In this document: piece by piece, positions 2,746-15,154 of the stretch
Numbering within the stretch: position 1 is the stretch's first letter
How the letters are laid out: the number at the start of each line of letters is the position of its first letter
IMG/VR virus record: IMGVR_UViG_3300037343_000117
Span: 1 to 20,182 of that record
Source: a virus
Strand: one strand, 5' to 3'
DNA length: 20,182 nucleotides
Made by a program: the position numbers and the translations under genes
The notes under the pieces: generated by a model
The model's database searches: none
What the model saw: only the letters and a program-made list of their open reading frames with translations
What the model was told of the DNA's origin: nothing

Positions 2746-2978
2746 ATCTCTTTACCCCCTTCTCTAACCAATAGCACAATCGCACCGTTTAGTTCTAGTG
2801 CGGACTTTACTTTGGCCATGTATTCTACGGCACTTCTTTTGCCCTCTCCCGTCAGAGACATGAACTGGTTCTCGCTGGCTTTAACCGTTAAGAAATTGTC
2901 ATGGTCTATGATTTGCAAGGAAAAGTCTTTGGGGCCAGCCAGAGATCGGAAAGCCCTTCTCATTTCATCCGTATACAT
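2742..2978 (-). CDS. Small protein of unknown function
   Basis: This 78-residue soluble protein begins MYTDEMRRAFRSLAGPKDF. It alternates predicted beta strands (SLQIIDHDNFLTVKA) and a helix (KRSAVEYMAKVKSALELNG) ending in a strand (AIVLLVREGG), suggesting a small alpha/beta fold. The start overlaps the WhiB stop codon by one base (TAATG) and its end overlaps the next gene by 4 nt. It is therefore part of a tightly coupled run WhiB - this gene - membrane coiled-coil gene. No motif points to a function. Confidence 0.7.
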   Translation of the reverse strand: MYTDEMRRAFRSLAGPKDFSLQIIDHDNFLTVKASENQFMSLTGEGKRSAVEYMAKVKSALELNGAIVLLVREGGKEI

Positions 2979-3262
2979 TATTTATCCATCGTTAGATATT
3001 TCCAGGTCTCTGCCCATTCTTTCTTAGACCGATGCCTGCCGAATTCTCTAGAAATCTTACCCTTCTCGAGATAGACGCCTCCCCATACACCGTATTCTTT
3101 TTGGGAAACTCCAACCGCAAAGCAGATTCTTGAGATAGGGCATGCAGCACAGATGCTATCTATTGCTGGCCTTACTGTTTCATTGTCCTCGTACTTGTCA
3201 AAGAATAAATTGACGTCGTACCCCTTACAAGCGGCTTGGTCTTTCCAATCATCGCTCTTCAT
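2978..3262 (-). CDS. WhiB-family Fe-S transcriptional regulator
   Basis: A 94-residue protein (start MKSDDWKDQA) with the WhiB signature: C12 in AACKG, then C38-x2-C41-x5-C47 (CAACPISRIC), which bind a [4Fe-4S] cluster, the turn GVWGG at 58-62, and a basic C-terminal region (FGRHRSKKEW). WhiB-like proteins usually act by binding region 4 of the principal sigma factor and are found in Actinobacteria and their phages; phage versions can rewire host transcription or affect superinfection. The frame continues 22 codons upstream, but that part overlaps the preceding gene and has no WhiB similarity, so the internal ATG is chosen. No good SD is visible; coupling to the overlapping upstream gene is likely. 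Confidence 0.92.
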   Translation of the reverse strand: MKSDDWKDQAACKGYDVNLFFDKYEDNETVRPAIDSICAACPISRICFAVGVSQKEYGVWGGVYLEKGKISREFGRHRSKKEWAETWKYLTMDK

Positions 3263-3473
3263 ATAAACTAACGATTTTGTCTGGAAGATCCCAGCCAGAC
3301 TCTGTGACATTAAATCGACGCTGCACAAACCATCTATTCTTCATAAATGCTCCGTTCTTTTTTGACCACCCTGCTGGATTAGGAAAAGACTGAATAACAT
3401 CCCAACCACTCCACGACAAAGTCCAATTGCTTTTTACAATCTTTTCCATATTATCTAGTGATTTTATGTTCAT
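3249..3473 (-). CDS. Small Trp-rich protein, unknown function
   Basis: The product has 74 residues and many aromatics: NWTLSWSGWDVIQSFPNP, GWSKKNGAFMKNRWFVQRR and a GWDLP element near the end. The pattern suggests a compact beta-rich domain; no enzyme motif is seen. AGGT about 8 nt before the ATG may serve as SD. Its 3' end overlaps the WhiB start by 14 nt and a possible tiny ORF overlaps its 5' end, so it belongs to the same leftward unit. I cannot name a family. Confidence 0.65.
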   Translation of the reverse strand: MNIKSLDNMEKIVKSNWTLSWSGWDVIQSFPNPAGWSKKNGAFMKNRWFVQRRFNVTESGWDLPDKIVSLYEER

Positions 3474-5305: not shown

Positions 5306-6073
5306 CTAAGGTAGCCTAATTACTTGTCCAACATTAATTAGATTAACGTTGTCAATTTTATTAAGCTTTGCAAGTATTGCTACAGTTGTCTTGTATCTTC
5401 TAGCTATTGCTCCTAGTGTATCTCCAGATTTTACTGTATGGGTCTTTGGCTTAGATACCGTTGGCTTTTTGACAGGAGCTGAGACAGGCAAAGGCTTGGA
5501 TACCTTTACAGCCACTCTCTTTGTCCTTGGGACTTTCCTACTCTCAGGCTCGGCAGGTTGCTGTGGCTTTGGGGTAGCCTTTGGAGTGCTAACTTTTACT
5601 TCATTAAGAGCTATCATAGAAAGAATAAACTTTAATGGCTCTAGGAAACCCCTGCCATCTTGTGACCAGCCGTGCGTTCTTCCCTTCCATATTTCAAAAT
5701 GTAAATGAAGTCCTGTTACGTAGCCTGTGTCACCCATTACGCCGACTTGGTCTCCAGCCTTAACCATCTGACCCTGACGTACCTTCGAGGAACCATCCTG
5801 CAGGTGAGCGTAAAGTGATGTGTAGTATTTGCCACTGATGAAATGTCTAATAACAATGTAGTTACCGAAACCACCGCCTTTGGCGGTAGACTTCCTAGAT
5901 TTAAGAACTCTGCCATTCATAACGGCATAGACTTTTTCATTTTTCCTACCAGTAATGATATCGTCACCGTTATGGTGCCTAGTAGCTTTTTTTGTTACGG
6001 GGTCTATCCTCCAACCGAATGGCGAGGTGACTCTGTACTTTCCCTGCACAGGTAATGCGAATAAGTTTGACAT
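5306..6073 (-). CDS. M23 peptidase endolysin with C-terminal LysM
   Basis: A 255-residue protein. Residues about 15-130 are an M23 (LytM/lysostaphin-type) zinc metallopeptidase: H34-x3-D38 in HHNGDD, H90 in LYAHL, and H123-L-H125 in HLHFE complete the metal-binding and catalytic set. A Pro/Lys/Val-rich linker follows (about 162-210). A LysM peptidoglycan-binding repeat fills 211-255 (HTVKSGDTLGAIARRY ... NVGQVIRLP). It should cleave peptide cross-links in the host wall. There is no signal peptide, so release depends on a holin, and the holin candidate is two genes downstream. AAGGAGG 8 nt before the ATG gives a very strong SD, and a promoter is directly upstream. A virion-borne role cannot be excluded. 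Confidence 0.92.
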   Translation of the reverse strand: MSNLFALPVQGKYRVTSPFGWRIDPVTKKATRHHNGDDIITGRKNEKVYAVMNGRVLKSRKSTAKGGGFGNYIVIRHFISGKYYTSLYAHLQDGSSKVRQGQMVKAGDQVGVMGDTGYVTGLHLHFEIWKGRTHGWSQDGRGFLEPLKFILSMIALNEVKVSTPKATPKPQQPAEPESRKVPRTKRVAVKVSKPLPVSAPVKKPTVSKPKTHTVKSGDTLGAIARRYKTTVAILAKLNKIDNVNLINVGQVIRLP

Positions 6074-6204: not shown

Positions 6205-6471
6205 CTATTCGGTATCAAGAATGGCTTCTGGTTCTGGGCGTAAAGCTGGGTGAGTGTCTGGTGAGTTACCCGCTACAAACTCGCTTTCAGGGTCTACCAG
6301 TGAAGCGATAAACACTTCAGCCCAATCAGTTGCCTGAGCCGCATCTGCCCAAGGGGTAACGTCGGGCCAGTCTGGTTGGAACATAAAGGGTGCGCCGTTA
6401 TCGTTTGGGTTTTCGCTGTCCCAAATTCTGATGGCGTTGTCTGAGTCAATTTCAAAGCGGTAACGTGTCAT
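6205..6471 (-). CDS. Small acidic protein next to the propeller gene
   Basis: An 88-residue acidic protein (MTRYRFEIDSDNAIRIWDSE ... FQPDWPDVTPWADAAQATDW ... FIASLVDPE). It starts with a beta-hairpin-like segment, then a Trp-rich helix, then a Pro/Glu tail. Such short acidic proteins often follow tail-fibre or adhesin genes in aquatic phages and may be assembly helpers or small virion parts; that role is inferred from position only. SD AAAGGAG lies 7 nt before the ATG. It starts 11 nt after the propeller gene ends and is the last gene before a weak terminator. Confidence 0.65.
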   Translation of the reverse strand: MTRYRFEIDSDNAIRIWDSENPNDNGAPFMFQPDWPDVTPWADAAQATDWAEVFIASLVDPESEFVAGNSPDTHPALRPEPEAILDTE

Positions 6472-6482
6472 TGTTTTCTCCT

Positions 6483-7592
6483 TTATGGAAGGCTGATTAG
6501 TGGGGATTTTGGCTCTAGGGAAAGGAAGGTGGTTAGAGGGAGAGGGCTATTAGTGGTAATTTTTCCTGATTGACCGACAGCAACATAAAGCCCATCGCTG
6601 TAAGTCACGCCAAGGATAGTAGTAGTCCCAAAACCTGATGTTCTAGTAGTCCAAGTTATGCCATCAGTTGAGGTGGTCATTTTTCCTGATAAACCGACAG
6701 CCACATAAAGCCCATCGCCGTAGGCCACACCAATGATACCAGTAGTCCCAAATCCTGATGTTCTAGTAGTCCAAGTTATGCCATCAGTTGAGGTGGTCAT
6801 TTTTCCAGAATCACCGACTGCAACATAAAGCCCATCGCCGTAGGTCACGCCATTAATTCCAGTAGTCCCAAACTCTGATGTCCTAGTTGTCCAAGTGATG
6901 CCGTCTGGTGAGGTGGTCAATGTTCCTGATTGACCGACAGCAACATACAGCCCATCGCCGTAAGTCACGCCCCAGATAACAGCAGTCCCAAACCCTGATG
7001 TCCGAGTTGTCCAAGTAGTGCCATCAGTTGAGGTGGTCATTTTTCCTGATTGACCGACAGCCACATAAAGCCCATCGCCGTAGGTCACGCCCTGGATATT
7101 AGTAGTCCCAAACCCTGATGTCCTAGTTGTCCAAGTGATGCCGTCTGGTGAGGTGGTCAATGTTCCTGATTCACCGACTGCAACATAAAGCCCATCGCCG
7201 TAAGTCACGCCATAGATACGAGTAGTCCCAAAACCTGATGTCCTAGATGTCCAAGTAGTGCCATCAGTTGAAGTTGTCAGTTTTCCATCTCGACCTACAA
7301 CAACATAAAGCCCATCGCCGTAGGTCACGCCATTAATTCCAGTAGTCCCAAACCCTGATGTTCTAGTAGTCCAGTCGTCTAAAACGTATTGTGCAGCCGC
7401 TATCAAACTAGCAATTCCACTTGGGTAATTTAGCAACCCAGCGTTACCGTTTACAGCTACACCGCCAACAGTTATAGGGGCAGTTGAGCTAACATCATAA
7501 AGCCCCGCCGCTAGGTCTACTGTGTAAGTCCCTGCCGCTGTGATGTTGTAGTTAAAGGTTGCTGCTGGTGCAGGCATACTAAATCTAGCCAC
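6483..7592 (-). CDS. Seven-repeat beta-propeller-like tail or adhesin protein
   Basis: The 369-residue protein has an N-terminal domain (1-73, Ala/Gly/Thr-rich, like virion attachment domains) followed by seven tandem 40-residue repeats (74-353) of the form WTTRTSGFGTTxIxGVTYGD / GLYVAVGxSGKMTTSTDGIT. Seven blade-sized repeats of this length suggest a closed seven-bladed beta propeller; such repeats occur in phage tail fibres and surface adhesins. Within the repeats nearly all residues are fixed, while positions 12 and 14 (and 28) change from repeat to repeat, as for exposed loops that touch a receptor. The GTG start overlaps the upstream TAG by one base with AGGGAA before it; an ATG five codons later is a less likely alternative. 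Virion location and receptor role are inferred. Confidence 0.8.
   Translation of the reverse strand: MARFSMPAPAATFNYNITAAGTYTVDLAAGLYDVSSTAPITVGGVAVNGNAGLLNYPSGIASLIAAAQYVLDDWTTRTSGFGTTGINGVTYGDGLYVVVGRDGKLTTSTDGTTWTSRTSGFGTTRIYGVTYGDGLYVAVGESGTLTTSPDGITWTTRTSGFGTTNIQGVTYGDGLYVAVGQSGKMTTSTDGTTWTTRTSGFGTAVIWGVTYGDGLYVAVGQSGTLTTSPDGITWTTRTSEFGTTGINGVTYGDGLYVAVGDSGKMTTSTDGITWTTRTSGFGTTGIIGVAYGDGLYVAVGLSGKMTTSTDGITWTTRTSGFGTTTILGVTYSDGLYVAVGQSGKITTNSPLPLTTFLSLEPKSPLISLP
6534..7373 (-). repeat. Seven tandem 120-bp repeats
   Basis: Seven in-frame units of exactly 120 bp encode the 40-residue blades. Units 1-4 also show a 240-bp pattern: units 2 and 4 share SGTLTTSPDGIT, units 1 and 3 share the TTSTDGTT ending, which suggests growth by duplication of a pair. 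Between the fixed strings CACGC and AGTAGTCCCA (plus strand) each unit has a 10-bp window that differs in almost every copy (6611-6620, 6731-6740, 6851-6860, 6971-6980, 7091-7100, 7211-7220, 7331-7340); two copies (6851 and 7331) are the same. Confidence 0.92.
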
Positions 7593-7873
7593 TAGCTTCC
7601 CTGCTCTAGGTTAAGATTTAAGACAGCTACCTGAGCTCCTGCGAGTTCAGAAATTGCGTGTATAGAGTCTTTTCCAGACAACTCGACAGACCATGCCTGG
7701 TTTGGTGCTATTCTAAATCCATAACTAGACAAAGAAACATCTTCAGCACCTATATAGATGTTTCCCTCTAGGTTAATGTTTTGGATAGTTATGTCGGCAC
7801 CGCCGTGTGTTCCTGGTGAAGATAGCCTTGTTCCCTCGGAGTTGGAGAGATTTACTAATTGATGAGATGTCAT
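7592..7873 (-). CDS. Small structural-type beta protein
   Basis: A 93-residue protein starting MTSHQLVNLSNSEGTRLSSP. The core ADITIQNINLEGNIYIGAED, then YGFRIAPNQAWSVEL and DSIHAISELAGAQVAVLNL has the strand pattern of small phage virion proteins (decoration, neck or tail accessory) in which a glycine-rich strand 'NIYIG..DV' is followed by 'G..I.PNQ..SVEL'. The frame extends upstream to a GTG at 7891, but those codons coincide with a perfect extended -10 box, so the ATG at 7873 is chosen. It overlaps the propeller gene by one base, so the two are coupled. Role inferred from similarity of pattern and neighbours. Confidence 0.7.
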   Translation of the reverse strand: MTSHQLVNLSNSEGTRLSSPGTHGGADITIQNINLEGNIYIGAEDVSLSSYGFRIAPNQAWSVELSGKDSIHAISELAGAQVAVLNLNLEQGS

Positions 7874-7879
7874 GACTAA

Positions 7880-7888
7880 ATTATACCA
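7880..7888 (-). promoter_or_regulatory. Leaderless extended -10 promoter of the structural cassette
   Basis: TGGTATAAT on the minus strand ends exactly 6 nt before the ATG at 7873, the same spacing as at 1546. The mRNA would start at the start codon; no SD is present. It lies about 20 nt after the tRNA-Thr 3' end, separating the tRNA unit from the structural genes. Confidence 0.6.
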
Positions 7889-7906
7889 CACTTTTCTTTA
7901 ATCTCA

Positions 7907-7981
7907 GAGCCTCAAGCAGGTCTCGAACCCGCCACCTACGCATTACAAGTGCGTCGCTCTACCAGATGAGCTATTGAGGCT
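7907..7981 (-). tRNA. tRNA-Thr (anticodon UGU)
   Basis: The acceptor arms AGCCTCA and TGAGGCT pair fully. The D arm has AGCTCATCTGGTAGAGC, the anticodon arm is CGCAC-TTGTAAT-GCG with anticodon TGT, and the T arm carries GGGTTCGAGACC. The 3' CCA is not encoded. It is the last of three tRNAs on the minus strand. Confidence 0.92.
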
Positions 7982-7983
7982 AG

Positions 7984-8024
7984 TGTCCAATTTTATCCCT
8001 ATACCCGTGGGAGTGGCTTGGACA
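7984..8024. repeat. Inverted repeat in the tRNA-Asp/tRNA-Thr spacer
   Basis: TGTCCAA (7984-7990) and TTGGACA (8018-8024) are perfect complements enclosing a smaller TCCC/GGGA pairing. It fills nearly the whole 53-bp spacer between two tRNAs and may guide processing of the precursor. Confidence 0.5.
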
Positions 8025-8034
8025 ATACCATTAG

Positions 8035-8107
8035 CGTCTACGATCAGATTTGAACTGACGATCCCCTGGCTGACAACCAGGTGCTTTAACCGCTAAGCTA
8101 CGTAGAC
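8035..8107 (-). tRNA. tRNA-Asp (anticodon GUC)
   Basis: Acceptor arms GTCTACG and CGTAGAC pair fully, with G as discriminator. The D arm has AGCTTAGCGGTTAAAGC, the anticodon arm CCTGG-TTGTCAG-CCAGG with anticodon GTC, and the T arm GTCAGTTCAAATCTGAT. CCA is not encoded. Confidence 0.93.
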
Positions 8108-8293
8108 TTGTGTGATGCATGGTTGACTAAACCACCATCACCGACTCTTTACTCAAAAACCTGCGAGTAACAGCACCATTACAGGTCTTTTACCTGCTGA
8201 AGGCTTTGGTATGCCCGTTCTTATTTATTTGGCAAAAAACCTACCATCTAGTGATTCGACACTAGCACCTAATCTGAGAAGTCACTCTCATTG
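8108..8293 (-). other. Hairpin-rich tRNA spacer with tRNA-like arms
   Basis: This 186-bp spacer between tRNA-Asn and tRNA-Asp has no ORF but several hairpins on the minus strand: TGAGA-GTGACT-TCTCA, CTAGTG-TCGAAT-CACTAG, CAGGT-AAAAG-ACCTG, TTACTC...GAGTAA, and GTGATG...CATCAC with an inner GGTT/AACC. The first two resemble an anticodon arm and a T arm (TCGAAT loop, one base shorter than normal) but there is no D arm or acceptor stem. It may be a decayed tRNA or a structured processing element. A T6 run follows the second hairpin 8 nt later. Confidence 0.45.
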
Positions 8294-8366
8294 CTGCCCC
8301 ACCTGGACTCGAACCAGGAACATCAGAGTTAACAGCTCTGCACTCTGCCAATTGAGCTATGGGGCA
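8294..8366 (-). tRNA. tRNA-Asn (anticodon GUU)
   Basis: Acceptor arms TGCCCCA and TGGGGCA pair fully, with G as discriminator. The D arm has AGCTCAATTGGCAGAGT, the anticodon arm CAGAG-CTGTTAA-CTCTG with anticodon GTT, and the T arm CCTGGTTCGAGTCCAGG. CCA is not encoded. It follows the small acidic gene by 10 nt and is probably co-transcribed with it. Confidence 0.94.
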
Positions 8367-8376
8367 AGGTAAATTA

Positions 8377-8550
8377 CTAACTAATAAGCTTTACTACATG
8401 CATACATGGGTCTCCACCGTCTTCCCAATCTGCTGCCTCTTCATCTGTCATGTAGGGGTCTCCGTCATGAGTGTTGCAAAATGCCTCGGTTACCCAGCCT
8501 TTATCAATACCAATTTTTAACCAGTCTCTGATGCCCAGATCTTCACTCAT
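8377..8550 (-). CDS. Small acidic Cys/His protein common in actinophages
   Basis: A 57-residue protein starting MSEDLGIRDWLKIG with the pattern FCNTHDGDPYMTDEEAADWE and GGDPCMHVVKL. The Cys-x2-His-Asp-Gly and DPC-x-H-V-V motifs recur in tiny acidic proteins of actinobacteria and their phages; no function is known, and the Cys/His residues may bind a metal. SD AGGAGG lies 8 nt before the ATG, among the strongest in the window, and a consensus promoter is directly upstream. It is followed by the tRNA genes in the same direction, so it is the leader gene of the tRNA unit. It is too short for many ORF callers. Confidence 0.82.
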   Translation of the reverse strand: MSEDLGIRDWLKIGIDKGWVTEAFCNTHDGDPYMTDEEAADWEDGGDPCMHVVKLIS

Positions 8551-8577
8551 GACTAATCCCTCCTAGATTGTATACCA

Positions 8578-8606
8578 AGTATACAGGAACTAGAAGGGAT
8601 TGTCAA
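8578..8606 (-). promoter_or_regulatory. Consensus sigma-70-type promoter of the tRNA unit
   Basis: TTGACA (8601-8606) and TATACT (8578-8583) on the minus strand are separated by exactly 17 bp. It starts 13 bp after the glyA stop and is the only full -35/-10 promoter found in the window. A second TATAC repeat follows immediately. It would drive the small acidic gene and the three tRNAs. Confidence 0.8.
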
Positions 8607-8618
8607 GCAAAGTTGAGA

Positions 8619-9853
8619 CTAATAAAGCTTATAAGCCTGAGTAAGACGCCTTACTCTATTCATTGCAGAGTTAGGAGACATTTTGCTTAACAGAAGGTCT
8701 GCGATAACATCTGCTACCTCTTGGAATTCCTCATCCCCGAAGCCTCTTGTAGCTAAGGCAGGAGTTCCGATTCTAAGTCCAGAAGTGACCATAGGCGATC
8801 TGCTGTCAAAAGGTACTGAGTTTCTATTAACTGTGATGCCAGAGCTATGAAGAAGATCTTCTGCTTCTTTGCCACTAATATTAGAGTTAGACAAGTCTAC
8901 TATTAAGAGGTGCACATCTGTTCCCCCAGTTAAGATATTTATTCCTCGATCTACCAGTGTCTCTGCTATAACTTTTGCTCCAGAGATTGTTCTCTCTTGA
9001 CGCTCTTTAAATTCTGGAAGCATAGCTAACTTAAACGCGACGGCCTTGGCAGCTATCACATGCATTAGAGGACCGCCCTGCTGTCCAGGGAACACTGCGG
9101 AGTTTATTCTTTTGGCAATGTCTGCATCCTGGCTAAGGATTACTCCGGACCTTGGCCCTCCCAATGTTTTATGAACTGTTGTAGAAACTGCATCAGCAAA
9201 AGGGAATGGGCTTGGGTGCAGGTCAGCTGCAACCAGTCCAGAGAAGTGAGCCATGTCTACCCAAAGCTTTGCTCCAACCTCATTAGCGATGCTTCTAAAG
9301 GCATCGAAATCAAGGTGCCTGGAGTATGCAGACCAGCCAGCAATTAAAACTTGAGGCCTGTGCTCTAGAGCCTTGTCTCTTACCTCATCCATGTCTATTA
9401 AGTTAGTTAATGGATCTACACCGTATGATGTAGCTTTATAGTTTCTACCCGAAAAGTTGAGCTTCATCCCGTGGGTTAGGTGACCACCGTGAGACAGCTC
9501 CATCCCGAGAATAGTATCTCCTGGTGAAGCCAACGCATGAAGCACAGCTGCACTAGCACTTGAGCCAGAGTGGGGTTGAACGTTTGCATACTTTGCACCA
9601 AAGAGTTGTTTTACCCTGGAGATTGCTAGGTTCTCTATCTCATCTACAAACTCACAGCCTCCATAGTAGCGCTTTCCAGGGTAACCCTCAGCGTACTTAT
9701 TGGTGAGGACTGAACCCTGTGCCTCCATGATCGACAATGGTACAAAGTTTTCACTTGCAATCATCTCAAGAGTATTGTTTTGTCTTGACTTTTCTTGTTG
9801 TATGAAATCAAATACCTCAGAGTCTACCTCTTCAAGTGTCTGGTAGAACGTCA

Positions 9854-9854
<1 letters not shown>
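8619..9854 (-). CDS. glyA: Serine hydroxymethyltransferase
   Basis: A full-length 411-residue PLP enzyme converting serine and tetrahydrofolate to glycine and 5,10-methylene-THF. Landmarks: [10 protein letters not shown] (30-39), [15 protein letters not shown] (52-66), NVQPHSGS (91-98), [11 protein letters not shown] (199-209, cofactor-binding D200 and H203), [14 protein letters not shown] with Schiff-base K229, [11 protein letters not shown], and the C-terminal [21 protein letters not shown] instead of TLRGPR is typical of actinobacterial SHMT. Starts at GTG overlapping the nrdF stop (TAGTG), so coupled to it. In a phage it most likely feeds methylene-THF to thymidylate synthesis alongside the reductase. 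It appears intact and was probably taken from a host. Confidence 0.95.
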
Positions 9855-12957
<3,103 letters not shown>

Positions 12958-12968
<11 letters not shown>

Positions 12969-13362
12969 ATAGTATTTCCAACCTATTCTTGACCTCTATG
13001 ACGTCATCTTGTGTACCAAAAATTTCTATTCTAGCGACCAGTGGTACTCCTGCTTTGCTAGATATCATGTGTGCTGCTTTACAAAAATCTTCTCCAAAGT
13101 TAGTGTTGCCGAAGCCAACTACCCCTTGGAGCTTTTCACGATTGTTTCTGTTATTTAAGAATCTTCGAACCTGTCTTGGGATTGCGTGCGTGTCGCTGCC
13201 TCCACCATAAGTCGGAACAAAGAGAACATAAGGATTATCCATAATAATAGGCTCGCTATCACTAGACCTAATAGGAATAGGAATAGCGTTCTCATTTATT
13301 TTCTCCGCGAATCTCTTGGTGTTACCAGAATAGTTTGAAAAATATACAATAGTTATGGACAC
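12958..13362 (-). CDS. nrdI: NrdI flavoprotein
   Basis: A 134-residue flavodoxin-like protein: [16 protein letters not shown] binds the FMN phosphate, [20 protein letters not shown] and [14 protein letters not shown] line the flavin site. NrdI supplies superoxide or hydroperoxide to assemble the Mn(III)2-tyrosyl radical of NrdF, which suits growth with little iron. GTG start with AAAGG 5 nt upstream; the SD lies in the end of terL. It begins 10 nt after the large terminase stop, so the reductase genes continue the packaging operon, and it overlaps nrdE. Confidence 0.94.
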
Positions 13363-13372
13363 TGGGACCTTT

Positions 13373-15154
13373 CTAGATTAAATTAAACTGACCCAGATAG
13401 TCTTCTAAATCTTTTTGCTCTGGCCTATATCTTATCACATTTCTGTCCTTATCCGCAAGCTCTTGTGGTGACTTAGCTCTATCTCTAAACGTGTGGATTT
13501 GAACTTCTTGGTTAGTGTTCTTTGGTGTATGGGATATAGCTCCATAGATGGCTCCACAAACAGCGTCTGCTAGGTCTTTGGAGGACTTTCTCGGGTGGTC
13601 TACCCTGTTACCCTTCATAATCTTTAGCTCTGTTAGCTCTTCAAACAACAAATCAATCATTGGCATCGCTAGTCGCTCTTCATAGATAAGCATTGCCATA
13701 TCCTCGTAATGTTTCTTGGCTACCGATACCGTCTCAGTTCTGATCCCAACAGACTTTAGCTCATTCTGAATATCAAAGGACTGCCAGCGGTCAAAGGAGA
13801 CCATTCCAATATCGAATCCTAGCCTGCGTAGGTTCTGAATCCACTGCTTAACCTCTGAAAGATCTACTGGCCCCTCAACACGTGGCTCCCAATAGACTAC
13901 AGCGTCTACCACTACTACTGGAGCTACCTGCTCATAATCTTTAATTACCTGAATATTTACCCAACGATCTACGTGAGCAATGGCAACAGCACACTTGTCG
14001 TGTCGTTGTGCAAGGTCAGCGTGAACATAATACTTCTTAGTTGGGTCTGGCTTAAACGTTTCCTCGAACCTCTTGAAACCGTCTATGGGGTTTCTGATGG
14101 TCATAGCGTTTTGGACCTTGTCCCTCTGCTTAAAGAAAGCATCTGAGGAGAACCTTGGAACGCAAGCAAACCTCTGCATGGCATCAGCAAGGTCTGTGTA
14201 AAAGGCTATCTTGAAGTCATCGATCTTACGTGTAGGGTTAACCACCCAAGTGGGACGCTTTAGAGCAAACATCCCTGGATACTTGTAAGTAAGGATTGTG
14301 TCCTCTTCCCAGTCAATCTCTAAAGAATTTCCTGGGGCGTCTTCTGGCAACTCATCATTCATAATAAACTTATGATGCTTTGTCACTACCTCTTTTTCCA
14401 TTACGACATCGTCATATCTTTGAGAGATGAAGTCTCCTGGGTAACGTGGAAAAGATAGCAATGCAACCTTACCCAAGTCTGGGAACCGAGAGTCTACCGA
14501 AGCACGAAATGCCTTGTATATATTATCTGCGGTCTTGGCCTGCTCGTTGCCTGTTCCGACCTCAGAGGCGAAGCCAGAGATCTCATCTAGAACTGCCAAG
14601 ATCAGGTTTAGGCCCTCATGAGACTCGCGCTCGGAGTGTCCAGAATAAACCGTTATTGAATGGTCAAACTCTATGCTATCCATTTTTGCATAGTACTTAC
14701 CTTGAAACCAAGGAGACCTTTCAATCTTAGATTTAAAGCCTTTAAAGAAAACGTTCTTTGCCTGCTGTGCATTTATAGCAATGTTAATAATGTCGATGGC
14801 GTCTCCGCCGGGCTTTCCAAAATATCTTGCGGGGTCCTTTAAGCAAAGAAGCTTGTACACAATATATGCACAGGCAACTGTAGAGGTAAAGTCTTTTCCG
14901 CTACCCTTTCCCAGCTGGAGGATAACTTCGTTCTTGGTATATTTTTTATAGTAGCGAGTGCCCTCTTCAAAACCCATAAGCTCTATGAGGTCTTCTTTTC
15001 TGTAGATCTGACTCATAGCCTCCACAATGTCATACTGACTCTGGGATAAGGTCGGCTGACCAAGATAGTCAATTCCCTCAACAAAGGTCTTGGCGTCTAC
15101 GGGAACCTCTGCGAATGGGCTATCTTGCAGCGCCTCTAAGAAATCATCAAACAT
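13373..15154 (-). CDS. terL: Terminase large subunit
   Basis: A 593-residue packaging motor. The ATPase has Walker A LGKGSGKD (81-88, K87), and Walker B LILAVLDE (184-191, D190/E191). The C-terminal RNase H-like nuclease has acidic residues D380 (YVHADLAQ), D455 (MVSFDRWQS) and D527 or D530 (SSKDLADAVCGA). It drives DNA into the procapsid and cuts it at the ends of packaging. The ATG overlaps the small terminase stop by one base (TAATG). The product is complete. No portal or capsid gene lies nearby; instead the reductase genes follow directly, which is an unusual order. Confidence 0.96.
   Translation of the reverse strand: MFDDFLEALQDSPFAEVPVDAKTFVEGIDYLGQPTLSQSQYDIVEAMSQIYRKEDLIELMGFEEGTRYYKKYTKNEVILQLGKGSGKDFTSTVACAYIVYKLLCLKDPARYFGKPGGDAIDIINIAINAQQAKNVFFKGFKSKIERSPWFQGKYYAKMDSIEFDHSITVYSGHSERESHEGLNLILAVLDEISGFASEVGTGNEQAKTADNIYKAFRASVDSRFPDLGKVALLSFPRYPGDFISQRYDDVVMEKEVVTKHHKFIMNDELPEDAPGNSLEIDWEEDTILTYKYPGMFALKRPTWVVNPTRKIDDFKIAFYTDLADAMQRFACVPRFSSDAFFKQRDKVQNAMTIRNPIDGFKRFEETFKPDPTKKYYVHADLAQRHDKCAVAIAHVDRWVNIQVIKDYEQVAPVVVVDAVVYWEPRVEGPVDLSEVKQWIQNLRRLGFDIGMVSFDRWQSFDIQNELKSVGIRTETVSVAKKHYEDMAMLIYEERLAMPMIDLLFEELTELKIMKGNRVDHPRKSSKDLADAVCGAIYGAISHTPKNTNQEVQIHTFRDRAKSPQELADKDRNVIRYRPEQKDLEDYLGQFNLI

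Follow-up and report, generated by a model that had tools for sequence, protein, structure and literature searches.

The window (the whole stretch of 20,182 nucleotides that was analysed, IMG/VR virus record IMGVR_UViG_3300037343_000117) encodes a protein that is predicted to form a closed Asp-box propeller of seven blades, with protein variation concentrated at positions 12, 14, and 28 of each blade. We consider it likely that this propeller serves a tail fibre or tail-tip protein as its receptor-binding head and is diversified by selection, by conversion between blades, and by exchange of whole rings.

The gene and its surroundings are listed in Table 1. An initial annotation had placed seven units of 120 bp at 6534-7373 on the minus strand, with TGIN, TRIY, TNIQ, AVIW, TGIN, TGII, and TTIL as residues 11-14 and R, E, Q, Q, D, L, and Q at position 28; these coordinates and residues are exact. 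The 369-aa protein matches DUF6242 in Pfam (PF19755, 1.9e-11, 44.7 bits against a curated cut-off of 29), and units 1-6 carry TSTDGTTW or TSPDGITW, an Asp-box motif of the SxDxGxTW type in each blade. A PDB sequence search with the protein returned chance matches only. Two further matches, to a RecE-like PHROG family (6.5e-5) and to Pfam bCoV_S1_N (0.0065, below the cut-off), were judged spurious because they cover short stretches only. A reading as a sialidase/BNR enzyme was rejected, as the blades are equivalent and no unique catalytic residue was seen.

Table 1 Features of the propeller gene and its neighbours (positions in the window)
Feature	Position	Strand	Codons 12-14	Codon 28	Remarks
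99-aa gene, directly upstream	7592..7891	minus			one-base overlap with propeller start; weak phrog_30212 match
Propeller protein gene	6483..7592	minus			369 aa, GTG start; Pfam DUF6242
N-terminal beta-rich segment, ~73 residues (NYNITAAGTYTVDLAAGLYDV...)	7374..7592	minus			kept in relatives
Seven-blade array	6534..7373	minus			40 aa (120 bp) per unit; unit 7 stops after strand C
Blade unit 1	7254..7373	minus	G-I-N, 7332-7340	R, 7290-7292	
Blade unit 2	7134..7253	minus	R-I-Y, 7212-7220	E, 7170-7172	
Blade unit 3	7014..7133	minus	N-I-Q, 7092-7100	Q, 7050-7052	
Blade unit 4	6894..7013	minus	V-I-W, 6972-6980	Q, 6930-6932	
Blade unit 5	6774..6893	minus	G-I-N, 6852-6860	D, 6810-6812	
Blade unit 6	6654..6773	minus	G-I-I, 6732-6740	L, 6690-6692	
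Blade unit 7	6534..6653	minus	T-I-L, 6612-6620	Q, 6570-6572	degenerate end
C-terminal tail (SLEPKSPLISLP) and stop codon	6483..6533	minus			kept in relatives
88-aa gene	6205..6471	minus			follows the propeller gene also in relatives with different upstream genes
M23 peptidase with LysM, downstream	5306..6073	minus			endolysin-like

The units had also been described as nearly identical except for one 10-bp stretch. This is right for the protein, where variation is concentrated at positions 12, 14, and 28, but wrong for the DNA. Pairs of units in the window agree at 87-109 of 120 bases (73-91%), and 51 of the 120 columns vary, many of them silently and some because of the degenerate end of unit 7. 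Scaffold divergence at four-fold sites is 0.19, and there is also variation at residues 31, 36, and 39. Since silent changes are found throughout the units, the repeats are not fresh copies, and the scaffold is held at the protein level.

The seven-bladed propeller proposed in the initial annotation, for which structure prediction had been named as a check, agrees with the predicted fold. The AlphaFold (AF2) model made with 17-18 aligned relatives has a pLDDT of 82 (about 90 over the blades) and four strands per blade; a single-sequence AF2 model reached a pLDDT of 40 and was set aside. The best PDB matches in Foldseek are the seven-bladed designs 7bie and 7big (nvWrap-T, v13WRAP-T), with YCF48 (5ojr) close behind (TMt 0.72-0.74), and a viral library yielded, among other matches, DUF6242 proteins of phages and the baseplate wedge initiator of a cyanophage. 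The prediction is thus a closed ring in which each of the seven blades has four strands. Since unit 7 stops with strand C and unit 1 begins with an N-terminal Trp strand, pairing of the two ends would close the ring.

Relatives of the L020 type close the ring elsewhere, with a start in mid-blade and strand A at the end, and keep seven blades; such circularly permuted propellers, which start with strand B, lie at L020:1994-2884 and L113:535-1425. Seven is by far the commonest number of units (79 of 225 ORFs with units, some of which come from overlapping loci and are not independent), although 14 and 35 also occur. The colinear close relatives have seven blades.

The initial annotation had suggested comparison with related phage genomes, and this comparison bears out variation specific to the short hypervariable stretch and position 28. 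Across the close family (24 phage contigs, 128 units), the entropy is 3.47 bits at position 12, 3.19 at position 14, and 3.32 at position 28, far above the next highest values (1.82 at position 31 and 1.70 at position 29) and much more concentrated than chance would give. Within one protein, the blades differ at about 0.83 at these three positions. The residue sets are restricted, with Y, R, L, W, F, and N common at position 14 and neither Lys nor Cys among the common residues. A profile search with the unit found arrays in many other viral contigs and in some bacterial genomes. Among 32 independent distant arrays, taken for their high blade identity, position 12 ranks in the top three for variability in 27 arrays, position 28 does so in 20, and position 14 in 17, against 2.5 expected; position 29 also stands out. 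The recurrence of the same variable positions across distant arrays points to a property of the scaffold and not of one phage.

In the predicted model, position 12 is the residue before strand A and hence in the D-A loop, position 14 is the second residue of strand A, and position 28 is the first residue after strand B, in the B-C turn. Since canonical propellers have the D-A loop and the B-C turn on the same side, positions 12, 14, and 28 of all seven blades should share one face, as the initial annotation had wanted to see checked, and would form a patch of up to 21 residues.

Selection on exposed loops had been proposed before. It is strong for two of the three positions: by parsimony, omega is 3.6 for codon 12 (p 4e-7), 7.2 for codon 14 (p 7e-10), and a marginal 1.7 for codon 28 (p 0.03), on a tree of units built without these three codons and with p-values that are approximate because of recombination between units. 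Most scaffold codons are far below 1, with codon 10 as an exception (2.8, p 0.016), and the scaffold has 375 amino-acid changes against 496 silent ones. At codons 12 and 14, the first two bases are near saturation and the third bases are no more variable than silent sites of the scaffold. In unit pairs with a four-fold divergence of 0.05, bases 1-2 of the hypervariable codons differ at 0.54 and those of the scaffold at 0.12, so that in the closest pairs the hypervariable divergence is about tenfold above the four-fold divergence. Where the downstream flanks of orthologues agree at about 95%, 15-19 of the 21 hypervariable residues differ.

The blades evolve in concert, and the homogenising recombination assumed in the initial annotation is visible in conversion tracts and in a near-absent memory of unit order between relatives. 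The contigs compared come from metagenomes, whose assembly can go wrong in repeats. L020 and L113 come from different samples and are identical over about 3.5 kb (2048-5544 of L020) except for six bases within 18 bp of unit 2; here L113 has the sequence of unit 3, which changes residue 14 from Y to D. L052 belongs to the species of the window (99.36% over 6.7 kb), and a tract of about 90 bases in its unit 7 matches unit 4 of the window, the apparent source, at all but one position; as L052 starts inside the array, misassembly is possible. An exact search for the flanking pattern of the window's species gave L052 alone as a further allele. Near-identical units that are not adjacent are also found in L005, L017, and L024. 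Units of the same index in relatives are hardly closer than units of other index, with permutation p-values of 0.14, 0.02, and 0.12 for three groupings. Even where the flanks are 95% identical, the order of units is almost entirely lost, and units within one array are closer to each other.

Exchange of whole rings is seen in the pairs L029/L137 and L137/L154, where seven consecutive units are replaced between flanks of 99.4-99.6% identity; both examples come from one contig group around L137. The contigs with these exchanged rings carry fibre-like genes. Single changes are seen too: the arrays of L014 and L016 differ only by S to W at position 29. The four contigs L020-L023 have identical arrays at a flank divergence of 0.3-0.8%. 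As arrays are identical in such close strains, change is episodic, and there is no active hypermutation.

The relatives link the propeller to tail genes. In L018, genes for a tape measure protein (1.6e-81), Dit (2.9e-29), and a minor tail protein (2e-73) are followed by the propeller protein; in L003, the order is Dit, minor tail protein, structural protein, and propeller. The structural protein upstream has an N-terminal part that matches virion structural and tail PHROGs; it is fused to the propeller as C-terminal part in L018 and is encoded separately in L003. In the 595-aa protein, the N-terminal part matches PHROGs labelled virion structural or head as well as tail. A propeller that ends a structural protein after tape measure, Dit, and minor tail genes fits a receptor-binding part. 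In the cyanophage-like contigs L032 and L137, propellers sit on several fibre-like paralogues. In a cultured relative, Actinomycetia phage DSL-LC01, the propeller lies among collagen-like proteins and is annotated as "photosynthesis system II assembly factor," a name that is probably owed to the fold alone.

In L018 and L003, the propeller is followed by the 88-aa gene, an M23-type peptidase gene, and a small gene. The 88-aa product is 78-98% identical across phages (L018:8616-8882, L003:4080-4346) and has no PHROG or Pfam match; it may be a fibre partner or chaperone. In the window, the propeller gene is flanked by tRNA, serine hydroxymethyltransferase, and RNR genes on one side and by lysis genes on the other, with no recognised tail genes adjoining. 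Because the window shares the propeller gene and the three genes after it (88-aa, M23, small) with these relatives but has this different set upstream, the cassette seems to travel between types of phage. The upstream genes form one run on the minus strand (8619-15154) with serine hydroxymethyltransferase, an RNR beta/alpha/NrdI-like set (named from sequence), and the terminase large subunit (from a PHROG match); downstream of this run are three tRNA genes and then the propeller/lysis cassette.

Other origins of the variation were weighed. Neutral drift of unconstrained surface loops, without selection for change, would be in line with the tolerance of propeller loops for substitutions and with units old enough for silent divergence. 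It appears improbable, because codons 12 and 14 are nearly saturated at bases 1-2 and behave like silent scaffold sites at base 3, because omega well exceeds 1 at both codons and the closest unit pairs show the tenfold excess described above, and because the sets of residues are restricted, as at position 14. At codon 28 alone, drift is possible. A diversity-generating retroelement (DGR), in cis or elsewhere in the genome, could instead mutate adenines in the hypervariable codons. DGRs are well known to target phage adhesins, and codons 12 and 14 are mostly NNT (T as third base in 84% and 80%), which superficially resembles mutagenised AAT. The initial annotation had seen neither a reverse transcriptase nor a template repeat, and both searches agree: RVT_1 is found in none of 84 contigs, most of which are fragments and some of which reach 80-247 kb, and the window holds no unit or template-like copy outside the propeller gene. 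Moreover, neighbouring adenines in ACT ACT and ATC are mostly fixed, position 14 includes TGG, CAG, TTG, and GAA codons, position 28 uses all third bases, and the arrays of L020-L023 are identical despite their flank divergence. We regard a DGR as very improbable.

The propeller could also be a lectin-like adhesin that decorates the capsid or tail and sticks generally to mucus, particles, or polysaccharide, so that the variety of glycans and not a specific infection receptor drives diversification. The window gene stands by itself, bacterial surface lipoproteins contain related propellers, and the N-terminal domain in relatives also matches head and virion structural PHROGs, all of which would suit such an adhesin. 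The placement of the propeller at the end of a structural protein right after the tape measure, Dit, and minor tail genes argues against it, as do the several fibre-like paralogues of the cyanophage-like contigs, and we rate this role as unlikely, if somewhat less so than drift. The lipoproteins in question are those of a Geomesophilobacter (L083:4536-6488 and 7243-9060), which have the same repeat type; the first array varies at positions 12 and 14.

For a receptor-binding head, we infer that the hypervariable face binds the receptor. The three positions per blade, two around the D-A loop and one in the B-C turn, would present up to 21 side chains on this face, and recognition of changing host surfaces would select for amino-acid change at them, with co-evolution with the host as the presumed force. 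Purifying selection and copying from blade to blade would keep the scaffold alike. New faces could arise from point changes under positive selection, from short conversion tracts between blades, and from exchange of whole seven-blade rings between phages.

The closest working analogue is the HET-E/HNWD type of propeller. In HET-D, HET-E, and HNWD of Podospora anserina, codons 7 and 9 (d-a loop) and 25 and 27 (b-c turn) are under positive selection, the repeats evolve in concert, and a conversion of 88 bp from repeat 4 to repeat 2 was inferred in laboratory mutants (PMC1805685, PMC2873952). Both systems have tandem near-identical blades, a selected pair that flanks a fixed residue at the d-a loop, selected sites in the b-c turn, concerted evolution, and short conversion tracts. 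In the phage units, as in the HNWD type, positive selection falls on residues of the d-a loop and the b-c turn (assigned by DSSP); it is strong at codons 12 and 14, marginal at 28, and weak at 10. However, the fungal proteins are NLRs with a NACHT domain, WD40 blades, and a variable repeat number, whereas the phage protein has Asp-box-type blades, is linked to a structural protein, and mostly keeps seven blades. With these differences and no NACHT match in Pfam, it does not belong to the HNWD family.

YCF48 and DUF6242 proteins share with it the seven blades, the SxDGxTW-type motif in each blade, the fold match to 5ojr, and the Pfam family, but YCF48 is a photosystem II assembly factor. Among phages, propellers are present in receptor-binding or peripheral baseplate proteins, namely, the five-bladed phi11 gp45, PRD1 P2, and the seven-bladed phiKZ gp131C; the parts of PMC4901313 used here do not describe them as tandem near-identical blades that are hypervariable at fixed positions. 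A survey of highly repetitive, recently amplified beta-propellers (PMC9218822) covers near-identical blades and includes viral and Asp-box examples, and a term search of it turned up nothing on hypervariable positions, positive selection, or phages. Adhesins diversified by DGRs, such as the tentaclins (PMC10743442), likewise vary a phage recognition face in a targeted way, but the phage propeller is without their reverse transcriptase, template repeat, and adenine pattern. In the open-access literature, with subscription journals outside this scope, we found no earlier report of phage Asp-box/DUF6242 propellers under diversifying selection. Within the same scope, propellers in phage receptor-binding proteins were already known, and we found no report that brings together, in phages, such propellers, highly repetitive blades, and diversification of the Podospora type.

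Where phage adhesins vary without a retroelement, each case is usually given its own explanation. We give about even credence to a broader reading, by which unrelated phages and some bacterial lipoproteins would use a widespread recognition scaffold free of reverse transcriptase, vary the same three Asp-box positions, renew a 21-residue face by blade conversion and ring exchange, and converge with the allorecognition propellers of fungi. The phage positions match in location those of the independently evolved fungal propellers for self/non-self recognition. A rule of three positions per blade and seven exchangeable blades could allow host-recognition surfaces to be read from the sequences of uncultured phages, and it would help to correct annotations of the "photosystem assembly factor" type on phage copies.

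Elsewhere in the window, a gene for a Hva1_TUDOR domain protein lies at 1031-1546 (Pfam 6.7e-11), and a WhiB-like regulator gene at 2978-3328 points to an actinobacterial host.
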